Assembly: GCA_903863255.1 (NCBI GenBank)
Contig: CAIPBJ010000087.1
Coordinates: 1 to 46,628 of the forward strand
Origin: an uncultured Methylophilaceae bacterium
GTDB taxonomy: Bacteria > Pseudomonadota > Gammaproteobacteria > Burkholderiales > Methylophilaceae
Length of the DNA: 46,628 nucleotides
Direction: 5' to 3'
Of the stretch, positions 9,307-17,502 are shown in pieces. The translations under genes were made by a program, and so were the position numbers. Under the pieces are notes generated by a model, which was given only the letters and a program-made list of their open reading frames with translations, had not been told where the DNA came from and made no database searches. Positions within the stretch are counted from its first letter, which is position 1; every line of letters starts with the position of its first letter.

Positions 9307-10005
9307 TCATAAGATGAAGCGATAGCCAACGCTTGATTCAGTCATAATATGTTTGGGTTGTGACGGAAGATCTTCAATCTTTTTTCTAAGTCGCCCCATG
9401 TAAATACGGACATAATGTACATCTTCACTATGGGAAGGGCCCCAAACGGATTTAAGAATCTGTTTTTGGGTGAGGACACAATCAGGATTGGATGCCATAT
9501 AGGTTAGAAGACGGTATTCGATCGGGGTGAGATGCAATATCTTTCCATTTCGCTCAACAATACGCTTTTGCCAGTCGATACGGACACTGCCAAACTCAAT
9601 CACGCCTTGATTCTCATTTTTGCCTGATGTTCTTCGTCTTAGATGTGCCCTGATCCGGGCGATAAGTTCAGCGACCCCAAAAGGTTTAGTCAAGTAGTCA
9701 TCTGCTCCGGCATCCAGCGCTCGAACTTTCTCTTTCTCTTCCGTTCTTGCAGATAAGATGAGGATGGGTATTTCAGACCAGTTCCGGATGTCATGAATAA
9801 AATCCACACCCTCGCCATCAGGTAGTCCAAGATCCAGGACAATAATATCCGGGTGCCTTGTTGCGGCTTCAATGAGTCCACGCTTAATCGTATCCGATTC
9901 ATGAACAACGCAACCTTCGGCCTCAAGCGCCATTCTTACAAATCGACGTATCTGTATTTCATCTTCAATCAGAATCACTACAGGTTTAGTGGAATCTCCA
10001 GCCAT
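9307..10005 (-). CDS. kdpE: KdpE, response regulator of the kdp operon
   Basis: KdpE is the OmpR-family DNA-binding partner of KdpD and activates kdp transcription when potassium is limiting. Residues 1-120 form the receiver domain, with acidic pocket IEDE near residue 14, phospho-acceptor Asp58 in IIVLDLGLPDG and Lys in the YLTKPFG loop. The C-terminal winged helix runs from VIEFGSVRIDWQKRIVERN to VGYRFIL, with HLTPIEYRLLTYMASNPDCV. The length of 232 residues is normal. The start ATG shares one base with the kdpD stop (TAATG), implying translational coupling. It is the last gene of the locus. Confidence 0.96.
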   Translation of the reverse strand: MAGDSTKPVVILIEDEIQIRRFVRMALEAEGCVVHESDTIKRGLIEAATRHPDIIVLDLGLPDGEGVDFIHDIRNWSEIPILILSARTEEKEKVRALDAGADDYLTKPFGVAELIARIRAHLRRRTSGKNENQGVIEFGSVRIDWQKRIVERNGKILHLTPIEYRLLTYMASNPDCVLTQKQILKSVWGPSHSEDVHYVRIYMGRLRKKIEDLPSQPKHIMTESSVGYRFIL

Positions 10006-12731
10006 TATTTCTCCAACCCAGCAACATCCATTTCAGGCTCAATTTCTGGTGGTGTTCCCTTAGTTAAGCTAAGTATAAATCTGGCCCCTCCAGTACTTTT
10101 ATTTTCGGCTCGGATAGTGCCTCCATGTGCTTCAATTATTGCCCTGCAAATCGCGAGCCCAAGTCCTACTCCTGGCGTCGCGCTCTCCTTCTCGCCTCGT
10201 TCAAATTTTTTAAATATTTCCTCTTCTCTTCCTTGAGGCAATCCGGGTCCATTGTCTTCAACGTAGACATTGACCACGGTTCCGCCATCAGCAGCCGTTA
10301 TTTTTATCTCACTTCCCTTTGGGGTATATTTAGCAGCATTTTCCAGAAGATTGCAAAAAACCCGTTCCATAAGCACGGAATCTATCTTAAGAAGAGGCAA
10401 GTTTTCTTCAAGATTAACCATGACTTTATAATCTTCCAGCATGGCTTTTTCCTCTCGAAGCGAAGTCTCAACGACTTCATCGATAAAACTCCATTGCTGA
10501 TTGAGTTTGACCTTCCCTGCCTGAAGGCGGGCCATATCCAACAAATTATTGACAAGAGCGGTCATGCGCATGGCTTCCATTCGCATGGCAGAAGCGATTT
10601 CCAGTTGCTGTGAATCAAGCGGAGGCTTGGTCATTGCCATTGAATCAGCCAGCCCCACCAATATACTAAGTGGCGTGCGTAAATCATGAGATATAGCGGA
10701 CAGTAAGGAATTACGCAATCGCTCGGATTCCATCGTCACGATGGTGGACTGGGCAATTTCCACATAATGGATCCGCTCTAATGCTATGGCAATCAATCGT
10801 GCAAACGTATCCAACAGTCTCCTTTGTTCTGGCGTCATCAGATTCTCACTGTCAGATGGCTCAAAAGCAAAAATCCCACGAACCCGCATGGGCGCTTTCA
10901 GCGGCAAATAGAGTACAGGGCTTCCTGGTAGTGTATCTGTTCCATTGCCTGCTGGCTCTTCGTGGTCAAACGCCCATTGGGCAATGCTGATATCTATAAC
11001 AGGTGGCTTGGTGGTTGCAGCAATAGGCGACTTCAGTTTATCTTCCATGTCAGACAAAACAACTGGCTCAGAGAGAATAATTGAGGCCTTTGCGCCAAAT
11101 TGAGACTCAATGAATCTGCCTGAAATCTCTGCGATCTGTTCGGGTACAAGCGCGCCAGACAAGTCTCTCGACATTTCGTAGAGCGCCCTGAATCGGTTCT
11201 CTCGGCTTTGTGCTATTTTTGCCTGGTATTTGAGTCCGGCAGTGAGCTGCCCTGTGATCAGCCCAACAGCAAGCATGATAAAGAAAGTCATCAAGTACTG
11301 AACGTCACTGACAGCAAAAGAAAACCTTGGTGGCACATAAAAAAAATCGAACGCGGCAACACTTAAGAACGAAGCGAGTACAGCAGGACCCCTCCCTAAT
11401 TTCAGTGCTACAAATACCACAGTCAGTAGAAATAACATCACGATATTTGAAAGTTCAAATACTGTATTCAATGGAGCGGAGATCAGGGTTGTCACGGCAC
11501 AGGCTAGCGCCGCCCATGCGTAGTTCTGCCAATCGTTTTCCATCCTATCAACTTGGCTTTGAAGCACCTGCTGGATCAGACCATGACGATTCGAACTCTC
11601 TCTCGATATGAGGATTACATCCAGGTCAGATGCCAGGGCACCCACCTTTTCAACAAACGTTCTTCGCCAAGGCCTCCAAGAACGAAGGTGATCCCGACCA
11701 GCCATGAGAATAACAAGGTTGTGCTGCCGAGCATATTGAACGGCAATCAAGGCAGCATCGCTTCCAGACAGGCTTGCGGTTTCGGCTCCCATATCCTGTG
11801 CTTGTTTAAGTATTTTAAGTGTTTGGTGACGTTTAGATTCTGGAAGACTTTGCAATTCTGGTGTTTCAATGTAAATCACGTGCCAGGGGGCATCCAGCAA
11901 TCCTGCAAGACGAGCCGCACTTCTTACGATCTTTTCACTTCCCACTCCGGAACTGATGCAAGCAAGTATGGATTCCCTCGCCTTCCATACAGGTAGAACA
12001 GACGAATCACGGCGGTATTGCTGCATTTCCTCATCCACACGGTCAGCCGTTCGTCGTAAGGCCAGTTCCCTTAAAGCGATCAGATTACCCTTGCGAAAGA
12101 AGTTCTGGATAGCACGCTCCGCTTGCTGTGGAAGATATACTTTACCTTCCTTCAGTCGTTGCAAAAGCTCGTCTGGCGGAAGATCGACCAGAACCACTTC
12201 ATCAGCCTCCTCGAATACCCTGTCTGGTATGGTTTCCCAAACGTTGATTCCAGTAATTCCGCTCACTACGTCATTGAGCGTCTCCAGATGCTGCACATTG
12301 ACGGTTGAGCATACATCGATGCCAGATGCGAGAAGTTCTTCCACATCCTGCCACCTTTTTGGATGCCGGGAACCAGCCACATTAGAGTGAGCAAGTTCAT
12401 CCACAAGAATAATTTCCGGTTTACGGGCTAAGGCTGCATCAAGATCAAACTCTTTGAGAATCCGGTCCCTGTAAGGAATCTCCTTCAGCGGCAGGATCTC
12501 TTGCCCTTCCGTCATGGCTTCGGTTTCTTTACGGCCATGGGTTTCTATGACCCCGACAACCACATCCACACCTTGAGAGCGCATCTGGCGCGCAGCAGCA
12601 AGCATCGCATAGGTTTTACCGACCCCCGCAGAGGCTCCAAAGAATAACTTTAATTTCCCTCGACTTGCTTTCTTTTCCTTGCGTTGAACCAACTCAAGCA
12701 ATTCATCGGGATCAGGTCGTTGATTTGTCAT
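10005..12731 (-). CDS. kdpD: KdpD, potassium-responsive sensor histidine kinase
   Basis: KdpD is the inner-membrane sensor that phosphorylates KdpE. The N-terminal cytoplasmic KdpD domain carries Walker A GASAGVGKT (about residue 32) and the segment VIETHGRKETEAM. A USP-like domain follows near residues 250-370. Four closely spaced membrane segments (DUF4118) lie at about 400-500, then a GAF-like region. The HisKA motif SAISHDLRTPLSILVG holds the phospho-acceptor His, and the ATPase domain has NLLENAAKYTPKG, DNGPGLP and GVGLGLAIC. At 908 residues it is complete. It starts 36 bases after the kdpC stop with a weak ribosome binding site. Confidence 0.97.
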   Translation of the reverse strand: MTNQRPDPDELLELVQRKEKKASRGKLKLFFGASAGVGKTYAMLAAARQMRSQGVDVVVGVIETHGRKETEAMTEGQEILPLKEIPYRDRILKEFDLDAALARKPEIILVDELAHSNVAGSRHPKRWQDVEELLASGIDVCSTVNVQHLETLNDVVSGITGINVWETIPDRVFEEADEVVLVDLPPDELLQRLKEGKVYLPQQAERAIQNFFRKGNLIALRELALRRTADRVDEEMQQYRRDSSVLPVWKARESILACISSGVGSEKIVRSAARLAGLLDAPWHVIYIETPELQSLPESKRHQTLKILKQAQDMGAETASLSGSDAALIAVQYARQHNLVILMAGRDHLRSWRPWRRTFVEKVGALASDLDVILISRESSNRHGLIQQVLQSQVDRMENDWQNYAWAALACAVTTLISAPLNTVFELSNIVMLFLLTVVFVALKLGRGPAVLASFLSVAAFDFFYVPPRFSFAVSDVQYLMTFFIMLAVGLITGQLTAGLKYQAKIAQSRENRFRALYEMSRDLSGALVPEQIAEISGRFIESQFGAKASIILSEPVVLSDMEDKLKSPIAATTKPPVIDISIAQWAFDHEEPAGNGTDTLPGSPVLYLPLKAPMRVRGIFAFEPSDSENLMTPEQRRLLDTFARLIAIALERIHYVEIAQSTIVTMESERLRNSLLSAISHDLRTPLSILVGLADSMAMTKPPLDSQQLEIASAMRMEAMRMTALVNNLLDMARLQAGKVKLNQQWSFIDEVVETSLREEKAMLEDYKVMVNLEENLPLLKIDSVLMERVFCNLLENAAKYTPKGSEIKITAADGGTVVNVYVEDNGPGLPQGREEEIFKKFERGEKESATPGVGLGLAICRAIIEAHGGTIRAENKSTGGARFILSLTKGTPPEIEPEMDVAGLEK

Positions 12732-12767: not shown

Positions 12768-13343
12768 TTATTTAAGTTCCGCATCAAGGTCCAGGTTAAG
12801 AGCAAGCACATTGACCCTGGCCTCACCAAGGAACCCGAACAGACGGGAGTCAGTATGTTTGATCACCAGTTGATGCAACTGTTCATAATTAAGATTTCGA
12901 GCCTTCGCTACACGCTTGATTTGATATTCTGCTGCCGCTGGACTAATTTCAGGATCCAGTCCACTGGCTGATGAAGTCACTAAATCAATCGGTACCGGTT
13001 GCGCGTTCGCTGGATCGGCTTCTCTTAAGGCATTGATGCGCGCTTTCACCGCCTCTGCCAGCGCCGGGTTCAATGGCCCCATATTGGAGCCCCCTGAGGC
13101 AACACCATTATTTGGATACGGCGCAGTTGCAGAGGGCCGCCCCCAAAAATATTGAGAACCTGAGAAGTTCTGGCCAATCAGAGCGGAACCGACAACTTTG
13201 CCGTCTTTTTCTAACAGACTCCCGTTAGCAGCCGATGGAAAGAATATTTGAGCGATAACCGTGACCGCTAGCGGATAAACCATACCTGTCAATACGGACA
13301 ACAACAGAAAAAGAGTAATTGCAGGACGTAAAATTGTTTTCAT
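12768..13343 (-). CDS. kdpC: KdpC, accessory subunit of the potassium-transporting ATPase
   Basis: KdpC is the single-span inner-membrane subunit that stabilises the KdpA-KdpB interaction and affects nucleotide affinity. One N-terminal membrane segment, [21 protein letters not shown], is followed by a periplasmic domain with the family blocks [20 protein letters not shown] and [20 protein letters not shown]. The C-terminus, [19 protein letters not shown], is typical. The length of 191 residues is normal. AAAGGA lies at good spacing before the ATG, 13 bases after the kdpB stop. Confidence 0.97.
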
Positions 13344-13356
13344 TGTATTTCCTTTC

Positions 13357-15423
13357 TCAGACCACTCGGGCGACAGATAAAATCATGTCGATGAATTTAA
13401 TGCCAATGAATGGGACGATCACACCGCCTAACCCATAAATAGCAAGGTTCCGGCGAAGCAGGATGGCTGCCCCCAGCGGGCGATAAGGCACCCCTTTTAG
13501 GGCCAGTGGGATCAAGAAGATAATTATCAGTGCGTTGAAAATCACGGCGGATAATATTGCTGACGCAGGACTTGCCAGATGCATCACGTTTAAGGCCGAC
13601 AATTGTGGATAGGTACTTACGAAAGCCGCTGGGATAATCGCAAAGTATTTTGCAACATCGTTAGCGATGCTGAACGTAGTCAATGAACCTCGAGTCATGA
13701 GCATCTGCTTGCCCGTTTCTACAATCTCGATAAGTTTAGTCGGGTTGGAATCCAAGTCAACCATATTGCCTGCTTCTTTAGCTGCCTGCGTTCCCGAGTT
13801 CATGGCCACGGCCACATCTGCCTGAGCCAACGCCGGTGCGTCATTTGTTCCGTCACCTGTCATGGCCACTAGGCGTCCCTCTGACTGATGCTGTCGAATC
13901 AATGCCAATTTGGCCTCCGGTGTAGCCTCGGCGAGAAAATCATCAACCCCTGCCTCCGCAGCGATTGCTGCCGCCGTGAGTCGATTATCGCCGGTGACCA
14001 TGATGGTTTTGATGCCCATTCGTCGAAGCTCAGCAAAACGCTCCTTGATTCCGCCCTTAACAATGTCTTTCAGTTCCACTACACCAAGCACCGTGATTCC
14101 ATCGGAAACCAAAAGTGGCGTGCTGCCGCGACGGGCTACGTCATCGACCACCTGATCAAGCTGCTTGGGGAAAGCGCCGCCTAATGACTCAACGTGTTTA
14201 CGGATAGAATCGGCGGCTCCCTTTCTGATCTGGCGATCTTCAAGATCAACACCACTCATTCTTGTATGTGCTGAAAAGTGAACGAACACAGCGCCAAGTC
14301 CTTGAATGTCTCGTTCACGAATATTGAATTTCTGCTTCGCCAACACAACGATACTTCGGCCTTCAGGCGTTTCATCGGCTAACGAAGAGAGTTGGGCGGC
14401 ATCGGCAAGGGTTGCCTCAGTTACTCCCTTGGCGGGAATGAAAGCGGCGGCCTGGCGATTACCCAAGGTAATGGTACCCGTCTTGTCGAGGAGCAGCACA
14501 TCCACATCCCCGGCCGCCTCAACGGCTCGACCTGACGTCGCAATCACATTGGCTTGCATCATTCGGCTCATTCCGGCCACGCCAATCGCGGACAGCAGAC
14601 CGGCAATCGTCGTCGGAATGAGGCATACCAGAAGTGCAATCAAAGTAGTCATATTCACTGCCGTTCCGTTACCTGAAACACTGACACTGAACAAGGAATA
14701 GGGCAAAAGAGTTACCGTCACGCCAAGAAATACAATTGTAAGCGCAACCAGTAAAATGGTAAGCGCGATCTCATTGGGCGTCTTTTGGCGCTTTGCGTTT
14801 TCGACCATGGCGATCATTCGATCTACAAAGGTCTCCCCAGGATTCGCACTGACACGCATCACAATCCAATCCGAGAGCACTCGTGTGCCGCCCGTTACGG
14901 CAGAGAAATCCCCACCGGATTCACGAATCACAGGGGCGGACTCCCCCGTAATAGCCGACTCATCCACGCTTGCCACACCTTCTATGACATCGCCGTCTGC
15001 AGGGATAAATTCTCCAGCATCGACAATAACAACGTCCCCTTTTCTTAAGTCTATAGCGGGAACGCTATGCCAAGATGCTTTAGAGGTTGGTTCATGGAGT
15101 TTCTTGGCCCAAGTCTCCTTCTTCAGGCCACGCAGCGAAGCTGCTTGCGCCTTGCTGCGACCTTCTGCCAAAGCCTCAGCAAAATTTGCAAAAATTACCG
15201 TAAACCACAACCACACCGCAATACCCAGAATGAATCCGGATGGAGCCTCTCCTTGTCCACGCATCGATTGGAGCCAAAGGATCGTTGTTAGGATACTTCC
15301 CACGTAAACCACGAACATGACTGGGTTACGCCATTGTATATGGGGAGATAATTTTTTGAAGGATTCGACTATCGCTGGCTTGACCAGTTCTGGATCGAAA
15401 AGGGTAAACGTTTTACGTGACAT
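13357..15423 (-). CDS. kdpB: KdpB, P-type ATPase catalytic subunit for potassium uptake
   Basis: KdpB hydrolyses ATP to drive high-affinity K+ import through KdpA. It has the actuator loop ITGESAPV, the phosphorylation motif DKTGTIT (about residue 300) and the hinge [20 protein letters not shown], with about seven membrane segments. The start at 15423 ([14 protein letters not shown]) gives 688 residues, close to the usual length, and has GGAG at correct spacing. The frame extends nine codons further upstream, but those residues lie in the kdpA-kdpB spacer and look non-coding. The kdpA stop is 11 bases upstream. Confidence 0.97.
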
Positions 15424-15434
15424 ATAATTTCTCC

Positions 15435-17231
15435 TTAATGTCCTGTCCAAAGAACCAGATGCTCGACCACAGGACCTAGAGCCAGTGCAGGGACATAGTT
15501 AAGCAATCCAACCAGTATCACCTCCCCGATTAAGAGGGTAACGAACAAGGGGCCGTGTGTAGACATGGTTCCAGAAGTGACCGATATTCGTTTTTTGGCA
15601 GCGAGTGCACCAGCAATCGCTAAAACGGGAACGATGACGCCAAATCGGCCAAACCACATTCCGATTGCTAGTAAGACGTTATAAAAAGGAGTATTGGCAG
15701 ATAGACCTGCAAATGCGCTGCCATTATTATTCGCAACCGAAGTCAAGGCATAGAGGATCTCTGAGAACCCATGAGCGCCTGGATTTGCGATGCCGGCTCG
15801 ACCTGCCTCCGTCATCACGGCAATGGCCGTCCCAATCAGAACCAGAAGGGGGGTGACCAATATGGCAATGGAAGTCATTTTCATCTCAAACGACTCGATC
15901 TTTTTGCCTAGGTATTCTGGCGTTCTGCCTATCATCAGTCCGGCGATAAAAACAGCAAGAATCGCAAAGACTAGCATCCCATAAAGTCCGGAACCCACCC
16001 CGCCAAAAACGACCTCACCCAATTGCATCGAAGCCAATGGAATCATTCCACCCAATGGCGTGAAGGAGTCATGCATCGCATTCACCGCACCACAGGAGGC
16101 CAGGGTTGTGATTGTCGCGAACAATCCAGAGTCCGCAATACCGAAACGCGTTTCCTTGCCTTCCATGTTACCGCCAGCTTGCATGGCAGTTACGGATTGA
16201 TCGGTGCCCAGTGATGCCAACAGGGGATTTCCCTGTTGCTCGAACGTCATCGCTCCGATGGCGAATGCGAGAAACAGGAGCGACATCGCTGCATAGATTG
16301 TCCATCCCTGACGTGGATCTCCCACCATTCTTCCGAAGGTGATACAAAGCGCTCCAGGAATCAGAAAAATCGAAAGCATCTGAAAAAAATTCGTCAAGGG
16401 CGTGGGATTCTCGTAAGGATGGGCTGAGTTGGCATTAAAGAATCCGCCTCCATTTGTTCCCAGCATCTTGATTGCCTCTTGAGAAGCTACCGGGCCCATA
16501 GGCAACGTTTGTGTCTGAGTCATGGCTGGCTCAGTCACTGGATTACCTTTGGCATCCTTGATCGGTTGACCTGAGGCGTCAAGTTTGGGATTGTCGTACT
16601 TGGTGACCTCTAATGTTTGGATATCCTTATTGGCAACGAAATTCTGGATCACGCCCTGACTGACCAGGAAAACAGAAAACACCAGTGACAATGGCAGCAG
16701 GATATAAAGTGTCACTCTTGTCAAATCCACCCAAACATTGCCAATGGTCGAAGCGGTATGCCTTACAAAGCCACGAATTAGTGCGATCACCACCACGATC
16801 CCGGTTGCCGCAGAAAAGAAATTCTGAACCGCCAGCCCCAGCATTTGTGTGAGATAGCTCATGGTCGATTCACCGCTGTAGCCTTGCCAGTTGGTATTCG
16901 TGACAAAACTAATTGCCGTATTGAAAGAGGAGTCAGGGCTGACATTGGCAAATCTCTGAGGGTTTAACGGAAGCGAAATTTGCAACCGCTGTAATAAATA
17001 GACAGCTATGACGCCCAGTAGATTGAAAAATAGCAATGCCAGCGTGAAGTTGAGCCAGCCCATTTCTTCGTCCTTCTTGATTCCGCAGAAACGATAAAGT
17101 GTATTCTCAATGACCCCGCCGTACTTCAAGCGGCCTTCCATCACTTGTGCGATGTAGAGCCCAAGCGGTTTACTTAAAAGAAGTAGCGTTAGAAAGTAAA
17201 CTCCGAGCAAGATCCACGCATGATTAGTCAT
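15435..17231 (-). CDS. kdpA: KdpA, potassium channel-like subunit
   Basis: KdpA is the inner-membrane K+-selective subunit, related to SKT-superfamily channels and K+ symporters. About ten hydrophobic segments are visible, with the four selectivity-filter regions near [51 protein letters not shown] and [16 protein letters not shown]. The start at 17231 ([13 protein letters not shown]) gives 598 residues, slightly longer than E. coli KdpA. It has a strong GGAGG element that lies within kdpF. A longer frame to 17348 overlaps kdpF and the preceding micro-ORF and is rejected. Its ATG overlaps the kdpF stop (ATGA). Confidence 0.97.
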
Positions 17232-17320
17232 GAAAAATCCTCCGGATAGAGTAACGCAGCAATCAAGTAAATAAACAATCCAATAACGACGACACAACCT
17301 ATTACAGTGAGCCAGTTCAT
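17228..17320 (-). CDS. kdpF: KdpF, small single-span subunit of the Kdp ATPase
   Basis: This is a 30-residue peptide, [11 protein letters not shown]... to ...ALLYPEDFS, forming one hydrophobic helix with a short acidic tail containing YP, as in KdpF peptides. KdpF stabilises the KdpABC complex in the membrane. It was found by reading all frames of the short gap before kdpA. It has GGAGG at good spacing before the ATG. It overlaps kdpA by ATGA at its end, and its own start is overlapped by the preceding micro-ORF in the same way. Confidence 0.9.
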
Positions 17321-17409
17321 TGTTTACCTCCGAGTTTTGAACAGCCAAAGGCCATCGCTGCGATCAGAATGAAAAGGAGCAATATTGCAACTATATATAT
17401 AATATCCAT
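17317..17409 (-). CDS. 30-residue single-span membrane micro-protein at the head of the kdp operon
   Basis: This 30-residue ORF begins [20 protein letters not shown] and ends in a short polar tail with Gly-Cys-Ser-Lys and Gly-Gly-Lys-Gln. It has one strong membrane helix and a positively charged C-terminal tail. GGAG lies 8 bases before the ATG, and its stop overlaps the kdpF start (ATGA), mirroring the kdpF-kdpA overlap. Similar tiny ORFs sit before kdpF in other proteobacteria and are sometimes annotated only by position. I know of no established function. A role as an extra small subunit or assembly factor of KdpFABC is inference from operon position and topology. Confidence 0.75.
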
Positions 17410-17451
17410 CTAACAACTCCCAAATAGTGACTCAGCAATACTAGTCGCTCG

Positions 17452-17485: not shown

Positions 17486-17502
17486 TATAAACAAAGTGTA
17501 AA
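17486..17502 (-). promoter_or_regulatory. KdpE-box-like direct repeat
   Basis: The minus strand reads TTTACACTTTGTTTATA, two TTTAYA units separated by CTTTG. The E. coli KdpE site has the same 17-bp geometry with TTTATA and TTTACA in the opposite order. It sits directly upstream of the candidate kdp promoter, in an operon that encodes KdpE. Assignment as the KdpE operator is inference from motif similarity and position. Confidence 0.6.

Follow-up and report, generated by a model that had tools for sequence, protein, structure and literature searches.

In the window (the whole stretch of DNA which was analysed, 46,628 nucleotides from an uncultured Methylophilaceae bacterium), an unnamed micro-ORF lies upstream of kdpF, which raises the question of whether it is a gene of the Kdp system and, if so, what its product would do. 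We refer to this micro-ORF as X. KdpFABC is a model for the joining of a channel-like protein with a P-type ATPase, and the structural papers on Kdp which we encountered deal with the E. coli complex. E. coli, the main organism of Kdp study, is without X (strain C4), and the textbook pump may therefore miss a part.

The kdp operon of the window

All features described here lie on the minus strand. X (17317..17409), identified from the sequence and from comparison with its family, is the first kdp gene and encodes 30 aa from an ATG start, with one hydrophobic span (maximum 17-residue Kyte-Doolittle mean 3.25). A Shine-Dalgarno-like GGGAG (17417..17421) is found 7 nt upstream of this ATG, and 93 nt upstream of it is a direct-repeat box, TTTACACTTTGTTTATA (17486..17502), of the KdpE type (TTTAYR-N5-TTTAYR). 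X is followed by kdpF (17228..17320; 30 aa), kdpA (15435..17231; PF03814 794.7 bits, TIGR00680 763.2 bits), kdpB (13357..15423; named by position and by the DKTGT motif, its start being set at an internal residue stretch), kdpC (12768..13343; named by position), the sensor kinase gene kdpD (10005..12731; PF02702 match at 12036-12662) and the response regulator gene kdpE (9307..10005; named by position and sequence type).

The TGA of X and the start of kdpF share an ATGA at 17320-17317, and the TGA of kdpF and the start of kdpA share another at 17231-17228. The coordinates therefore bear out the initial annotation, which had described two 30-residue peptides chained by ATGA into kdpA, and its naming of the second as KdpF agrees with scores above the curated cut-offs of both PF09604 (34.7 bits) and TIGR02115 (37.8 bits). 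GGAGG stands upstream of both kdpF and kdpA which, together with the GGGAG before X, indicates a separate ribosome site for each of the three genes.

X-like peptides upstream of kdpA

We searched 200 regions of DNA upstream of kdpA, originating from 102 genomes (near and phylum samples), 78 of 80 named contigs and 20 plasmid records. Two named contigs (L172 and L211) were dropped as their kdpA match starts at or near the contig edge, and the upstream regions of G232, G237, G268, G322 and G330, of 97 genomes, were left out of the set; outside the 200 regions, a genome-wide profile search found X adjoining kdpA in G232, G322 and G330. The set contains some near-duplicates, for example L082/L201, L073/L191 and L118/L159. 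X was called where a peptide scored ≥ 8 bits and above its score for KdpF; 146 of the 148 peptides called in this way reach 12 bits. An X-like peptide was present in 148 of the 200 regions, KdpF in 192 and both in 144. By source, X was found in 72 of the 102 sampled genomes, 63 of the 78 named contigs and 13 of the 20 plasmid records. Seven diverged or startless copies (L004, L006, L008, L010, L133, L135 and L197) were judged by eye; these were used only in the tree described below and are not among the 148.

The peptides align almost without gaps and have a median length of 29 aa (range 26-52, n = 148, with starts assigned by script). Their size and topology are those of single-span accessory subunits, which have under about 50 aa and one span.

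At ≥ 12 bits the X profile matched 147 of the 200 regions, but none of the 200 antisense strands and none of 1000 dinucleotide-shuffled regions. These controls matter because some of the scored regions had served to train the profile. At 8 bits the controls gave 0 of 200 antisense strands and 2 of 1000 shuffled regions, and 1 of 1480 residue-shuffled peptides reached 12 bits with the X profile.

Selection and residue conservation

X has a pooled pN/pS of 0.36 (bootstrap 95% interval 0.29-0.43; 21 independent pairs), and KdpF one of 0.31 (0.26-0.37; 53 pairs). The same X DNA gave 1.41 and 1.41 in the two shifted frames. As the ratio is low only in the frame of X, the peptide itself appears to be kept, beyond the mere reading of the region. 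This is the bias towards synonymous change for which the initial annotation had proposed to look, and it supports both X as a gene and selection on X at the level of the protein.

These results bear directly on whether X could be an ORF due to chance or without function. Such a reading would fit with most of the X-bearing plasmid records inspected listing no feature for X, in gene tables which are incomplete, and with the presence of X changing at least nine times on a tree of KdpA. It is hardly credible in the face of the empty antisense (0 of 200) and shuffled (0 of 1000) controls, the pN/pS of 0.36 and the conservation over several phyla described below, which lead us to hold it refuted at the level of the family. 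At this level, X almost certainly codes for a protein of the Kdp system.

Over 96 non-redundant rows, the conserved positions of X are D2 (92%), F13 (71%), C23 (52%), D/E24 (64%), R/K25 (80%) and L26 (72%). The pattern is weak, D2 alone exceeding 90%, and the helical periodicity of conservation in X was not significant (p = 0.34; 0.11 for KdpF).

Comparison with KdpF and other families

X from the window matched no model of Pfam or NCBIfam at E values up to 10. When 45 members of the X family were compared, no database family matched more than two of them (best E value 0.013 in Pfam and 0.044 in NCBIfam), and at E values up to 1 the KdpF models were not among the families matched. A few further X peptides gave a best E value of 0.025 against family models. 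No relatives of X were found in the PDB (best E value 4.8).

KdpF resembles X in being a single span of about 30 aa, in belonging to the kdp operon, in its frequent overlap with a neighbour and in its similar pN/pS. However, KdpF has Y18 in 100%, E27 in 95% and F29 in 83% of 145 rows whereas the 96 rows of X follow a different pattern, and the columns of the two alignments show that the YL..AL...E.F signature of KdpF is absent from X. We considered whether X is a duplicate or paralogue of KdpF and found this unsupported, as X has no PF09604 or TIGR02115 match and a distinct signature, and profile-profile comparison with hhalign gave a probability of 12%. Small accessory proteins such as CydX and AcrZ are also under 50 aa with one span and form part of, or bind, a membrane complex, as X may do.

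X has already entered RefSeq as WP_212667346.1, a 34-aa Mycetohabitans protein which lies in the slot before kdpF (L118:433-537). Its name there, "potassium ABC transporter ATPase", cannot fit a single-span peptide of 34 aa. Recognition of X would give annotators a slot for a peptide which is now missed or mislabelled.

Specificity for kdp loci

We also searched the X alignment against 299 whole genomes of the phylum and found 69 matches in 67 genomes (E ≤ 0.01). The majority of these, 62 of the 69, adjoin kdpA or kdpF, including two directly upstream of kdpF at contig ends (G240 and G287), and 60 are within 900 nt of a KdpA match. Six of the remaining matches are weak (E values of 0.003-0.009), lie inside frames of 135-761 codons and are probably due to chance. 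In ten genomes of other phyla, X matches were found in nine; G445 also has a weak second match inside a 553-codon frame. X therefore shows conserved co-localisation with the genes of the kdp complex.

In G151, an orphan X-like peptide (L219, G151:C9:84620-84691; E = 7e-4) has no kdp gene in the 3.5 kb inspected. A full kdpA, accompanied by X, is present at another site of this genome, and the orphan is possibly the relic of a second kdp operon. In G446, the genome of L202 (titled Myxococcales bacterium 68-20), there are two kdpA loci (L220 and L226), each with X and kdpF.

Gene order and overlap

Among the 144 regions with both peptides, X precedes kdpF in 142 and follows it in 2, and inspection added a third kdpF-X case (L107). 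The 142 X-kdpF pairs include 56 with the 4-nt overlap, 69 with any overlap and 138 in which the two genes lie within 25 nt. The initial annotation had argued from the overlap and from the equal length of the two peptides that X is real; both features are true of the window, but neither is general, with the 4-nt overlap in 56 of 142 pairs and X ranging from 26 to 52 aa.

The order kdpF-X-kdpA is found in L107, L111/L223 and L134, that of G225 (L111) being kdpF-X-kdpA-kdpC-kdpB. As a separate arrangement, G382 (L221) has kdpF-kdpB-X-kdpA-kdpC-kdpD-kdpE, in which X stays with kdpA and kdpF with kdpB. In all four rearranged operons (L107, L111, L134 and L221) X is directly upstream of kdpA, and these orders support its place in the operon.

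Since X so often comes first, it could be a leader peptide or uORF whose translation, rather than whose product, sets ribosome loading or attenuation of kdpF and kdpA. The 142 of 144 regions in which X precedes kdpF, with overlap in 69 and spacing within 25 nt in 138, would suit such a device. However, purifying selection acts on the amino-acid sequence in the X frame only (pN/pS 0.36 over its full length, 21 pairs), whereas the peptide of a leader is free to vary outside its regulatory codons, and a peptide profile of X transfers between phyla. A leader is also promoter-proximal, and the rearranged operons argue against it in that X is not first in any of the four, being second in the kdpF-X-kdpA operons and third in kdpF-kdpB-X-kdpA. 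We therefore consider this reading very improbable, and on the basis of protein-level selection and the non-first positions we rejected a leader peptide as the main role of X.

Promoter box

A KdpE-type box was found at ≤ 300 nt before X in 53 of 140 X-first operons (median position -101; 3 of 140 on the reverse strand) and at ≤ 300 nt before kdpF in 29 of 41 regions in which X was not seen (median position -100; 3 of 41 on the reverse strand). The interval from -115 to -85 held 33 of the 53 boxes before X and 22 of the 29 before kdpF. In E. coli C4 the box is at -99 from kdpF, and in four loci missed by the profile (L004, L006, L008 and L010) it lies 187-202 nt upstream of kdpF and some 100 nt upstream of a diverged X. 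These positions indicate that, in operons with a box, X takes the promoter-proximal place which kdpF has in E. coli, and they support an association of X with the promoter box. With a box about 100 nt upstream of it, X is expected in the kdp mRNA, of which it should form part.

Small ORFs and long leaders in the literature

A paper from 1997 on C. acetobutylicum reportedly describes two ORFs for small hydrophobic peptides, orfZ and orfY, upstream of kdpA, and this would probably be the first sighting of X together with kdpF; its kdpX is said to be a different gene, located after kdpC. The C. acetobutylicum transcript is cited as "kdpZYABCXDE" in a passage of PMC5401905. Here kdpZ and kdpY are probably X and kdpF.

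X may also account for "long 5' UTRs" which have been reported upstream of kdpF. For M. smegmatis, a passage of PMC5401905 gives a 120-bp "5'-UTR" before kdpF, determined by 5'-RACE, and calls it long and worth study. For Caulobacter, a passage of PMC8552747 gives about 100 nt before kdpF, a length inferred from a sigma-T promoter with the start site not determined. Both stretches are of the right size for an X gene of 81-93 nt but are described, in those passages, as untranslated. As relatives in the actinobacteria and alphaproteobacteria have X, we predict that both of these "5' UTRs" hold it.

A literature search of openly licensed papers found none which names X or treats the first of these ORFs as belonging to a conserved family. 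The main text of a Sinorhizobium Ribo-seq paper (PMC10117765) has no word beginning with "kdp", a paper on Deinococcus peptides (PMC9650054) names KdpF once, in its introduction, and the relevant passages of a Streptomyces review (PMC10117811) list KdpF, A, B and C and no further kdp peptide.

Distribution and history of X

In a search of 120 genomes, X was found in three relatives from the same family (G007, G020 and G106) at 54, 64 and 67% identity, with E values of 1.8e-5 to 3.7e-8. KdpA was present in 15 of 61 near genomes. In G001, G016, G034 and G021 the X slot is taken by a diverged single-span peptide which shares an ATGA with kdpF, as judged by eye, and G006 keeps kdpF with no X-like peptide upstream. 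Three genomes (G055, G049 and G039; L013-L018) have KdpA-like proteins which match only in two pieces, and the readable part of their upstream DNA, mostly masked in G055, contains no kdpF or X.

To follow X beyond the phylum of the window we used a profile trained on 59 peptides from this phylum (Pseudomonadota) only, and 19 of 25 loci from outside it reached ≥ 12 bits, with L134 at exactly 12.0 bits. The titles of the passing contigs are taxonomically diverse: Acidobacteria, Chloroflexi, Nitrospirae/Nitrospira, Planctomycetaceae, Verrucomicrobia-type, Ignavibacteriae, Binatia, Myxococcales, Deltaproteobacteria, Deinococcus, Allomeiothermus, Streptomyces and one "bacterium". The profile misses Phocaeicola and Listeria, where a similar peptide can be seen by eye; in Lactiplantibacillus, Enterococcus, Halobacterium and one Geobacteraceae contig, X was found neither by profile nor by eye. 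Among five further actinobacterial records, Arthrobacter, Rhodococcus and Nonomuraea reached ≥ 12 bits, a second Streptomyces scored 10.7 bits and no X was found in Tsukamurella; in the first four the X-kdpF overlap is ATGA or GTGA. X was also seen in alphaproteobacteria.

Several lineages are without X. It was absent from 8 of 8 named enteric contigs and from E. coli strain C4, from 10 of 10 sampled genomes of family f33 and from Ideonella. Family f33 may be Pseudomonas, judging by its KdpF sequences; the named Pseudomonas contig TH31 (L141) carries X. Family f36 appears to be the enterics, as the kdpF of G319 is identical to that of a Pantoea contig (L191). These absences indicate that a kdp operon is able to do without X.

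Of 138 KdpA proteins placed on a tree, 117 go with X (7 of these judged by eye) and 21 do not, and the state of X has to change at least 9 times. Shuffled states required 19.9 changes, and 0 of 500 shuffles were as low as the observed 9. The tree was made with a fast method which joined long branches, and gain and loss are indistinguishable on it; the breadth of X across phyla makes an early origin with repeated loss the likelier history.

The initial annotation had proposed that a frame conserved across gammaproteobacteria would speak for X, and that frame-breaking changes in relatives which keep kdpF would speak against it. The frame is conserved across phyla, well past the gammaproteobacteria, and close relatives mostly keep it, with G007, G020 and G106 retaining X and G006 lacking it. 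The view that X is a real gene, laid out for being made with the pump, is thus upheld by its conserved frame, purifying selection, near-restriction to kdp loci and upstream box.

Possible roles of X

On the evidence of sequence, X most likely serves the Kdp pump with its single span as an accessory subunit, as an assembly factor or as a regulator, and the first two of these, an accessory subunit or a factor for the assembly or stability of KdpFABC, together form the reading which we think probable. The nearest model for its function may be that of KdpF, which Gassel et al. reportedly found in 1999 to stabilise the E. coli Kdp complex in vitro. We infer that X would be transcribed as first gene from the KdpE-controlled kdp promoter and translated from its own ribosome site, overlapping kdpF in about half of the operons. 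After insertion into the membrane it would act as a membrane protein on KdpFABC itself, in the manner of KdpF, by binding to the pump, where KdpA is the likelier partner. Some observations count against this reading. The lineages which lack X weigh against a subunit because their kdp operons manage without one, only 53 of the 140 X-first operons showed the box, and X has no significant helical face, such as tight packing might show. Regulation of the activity of the pump, or of KdpD, would leave similar traces.

Phospholamban and sarcolipin are micropeptides which act on P-type ATPases of animals. X might similarly be a regulatory micropeptide which, without being a fixed subunit, tunes or inhibits the activity of the pump by binding to KdpB or KdpA within the membrane; it too is a single-span microprotein encoded together with a P-type ATPase, its short charged C-terminus is conserved (R/K25 in 80% and D/E24 in 64% of 96 rows) and it is missing from several lineages. 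However, a structural subunit would leave the same traces and encoding in the same operon would tend toward a fixed ratio with the pump, and we regard such a regulator as rather unlikely.

Action on the sensor kinase KdpD, by feedback or by modulation of its signal, is less likely again. In the window kdpD shares the operon with X, and mycobacterial KdpF is described in part of PMC3618439 as binding KdpD in a two-hybrid assay, yet as having no major regulatory effect. Against this reading, G316, whose genome is rated 100% complete, has X-F-A-B-C and no KdpD (PF02702) match. Conversely, KdpD is present and no X was found in families f33 and f36 and in E. coli, and X in the rearranged operons adjoins kdpA and not kdpD. 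The retention of X in G316 makes a peptide which depends on KdpD unlikely.

With a second micro-gene conserved in the majority of the remaining kdp operons which we examined, the list of subunits, the constructs for purification and the structural models of Kdp may be incomplete for many bacteria. A further suggestion, which we put forward tentatively and consider somewhat doubtful, is that the common bacterial Kdp is a five-gene X-F-A-B-C complex whose ancient fifth subunit was lost toward E. coli. Were this true, the structures and biochemistry of E. coli KdpFABC would describe a reduced form of the pump, and "long 5' UTRs" of kdp mRNAs elsewhere would be coding sequence of the X subunit.

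Other small ORFs in kdp operons

Further small ORFs were observed in some kdp operons. In six of the eight sampled f63 genomes (L059, L068, L049, L050, L052 and L053) kdpF and kdpA are separated by an additional hydrophobic micro-ORF, 29-34 aa long, which in three cases starts with GTG, so that in these six genomes three micro-ORFs stand upstream of kdpA. In the Acidiphilium plasmid pACRY03, X ends about 310 nt upstream of kdpA and a hydrophobic ORF of 46 aa, annotated as hypothetical, lies between kdpF and kdpA (L125:464-604). In Phyllobacterium a hypothetical ORF of 57 aa is located between kdpA and kdpB (L127:2284-2457).
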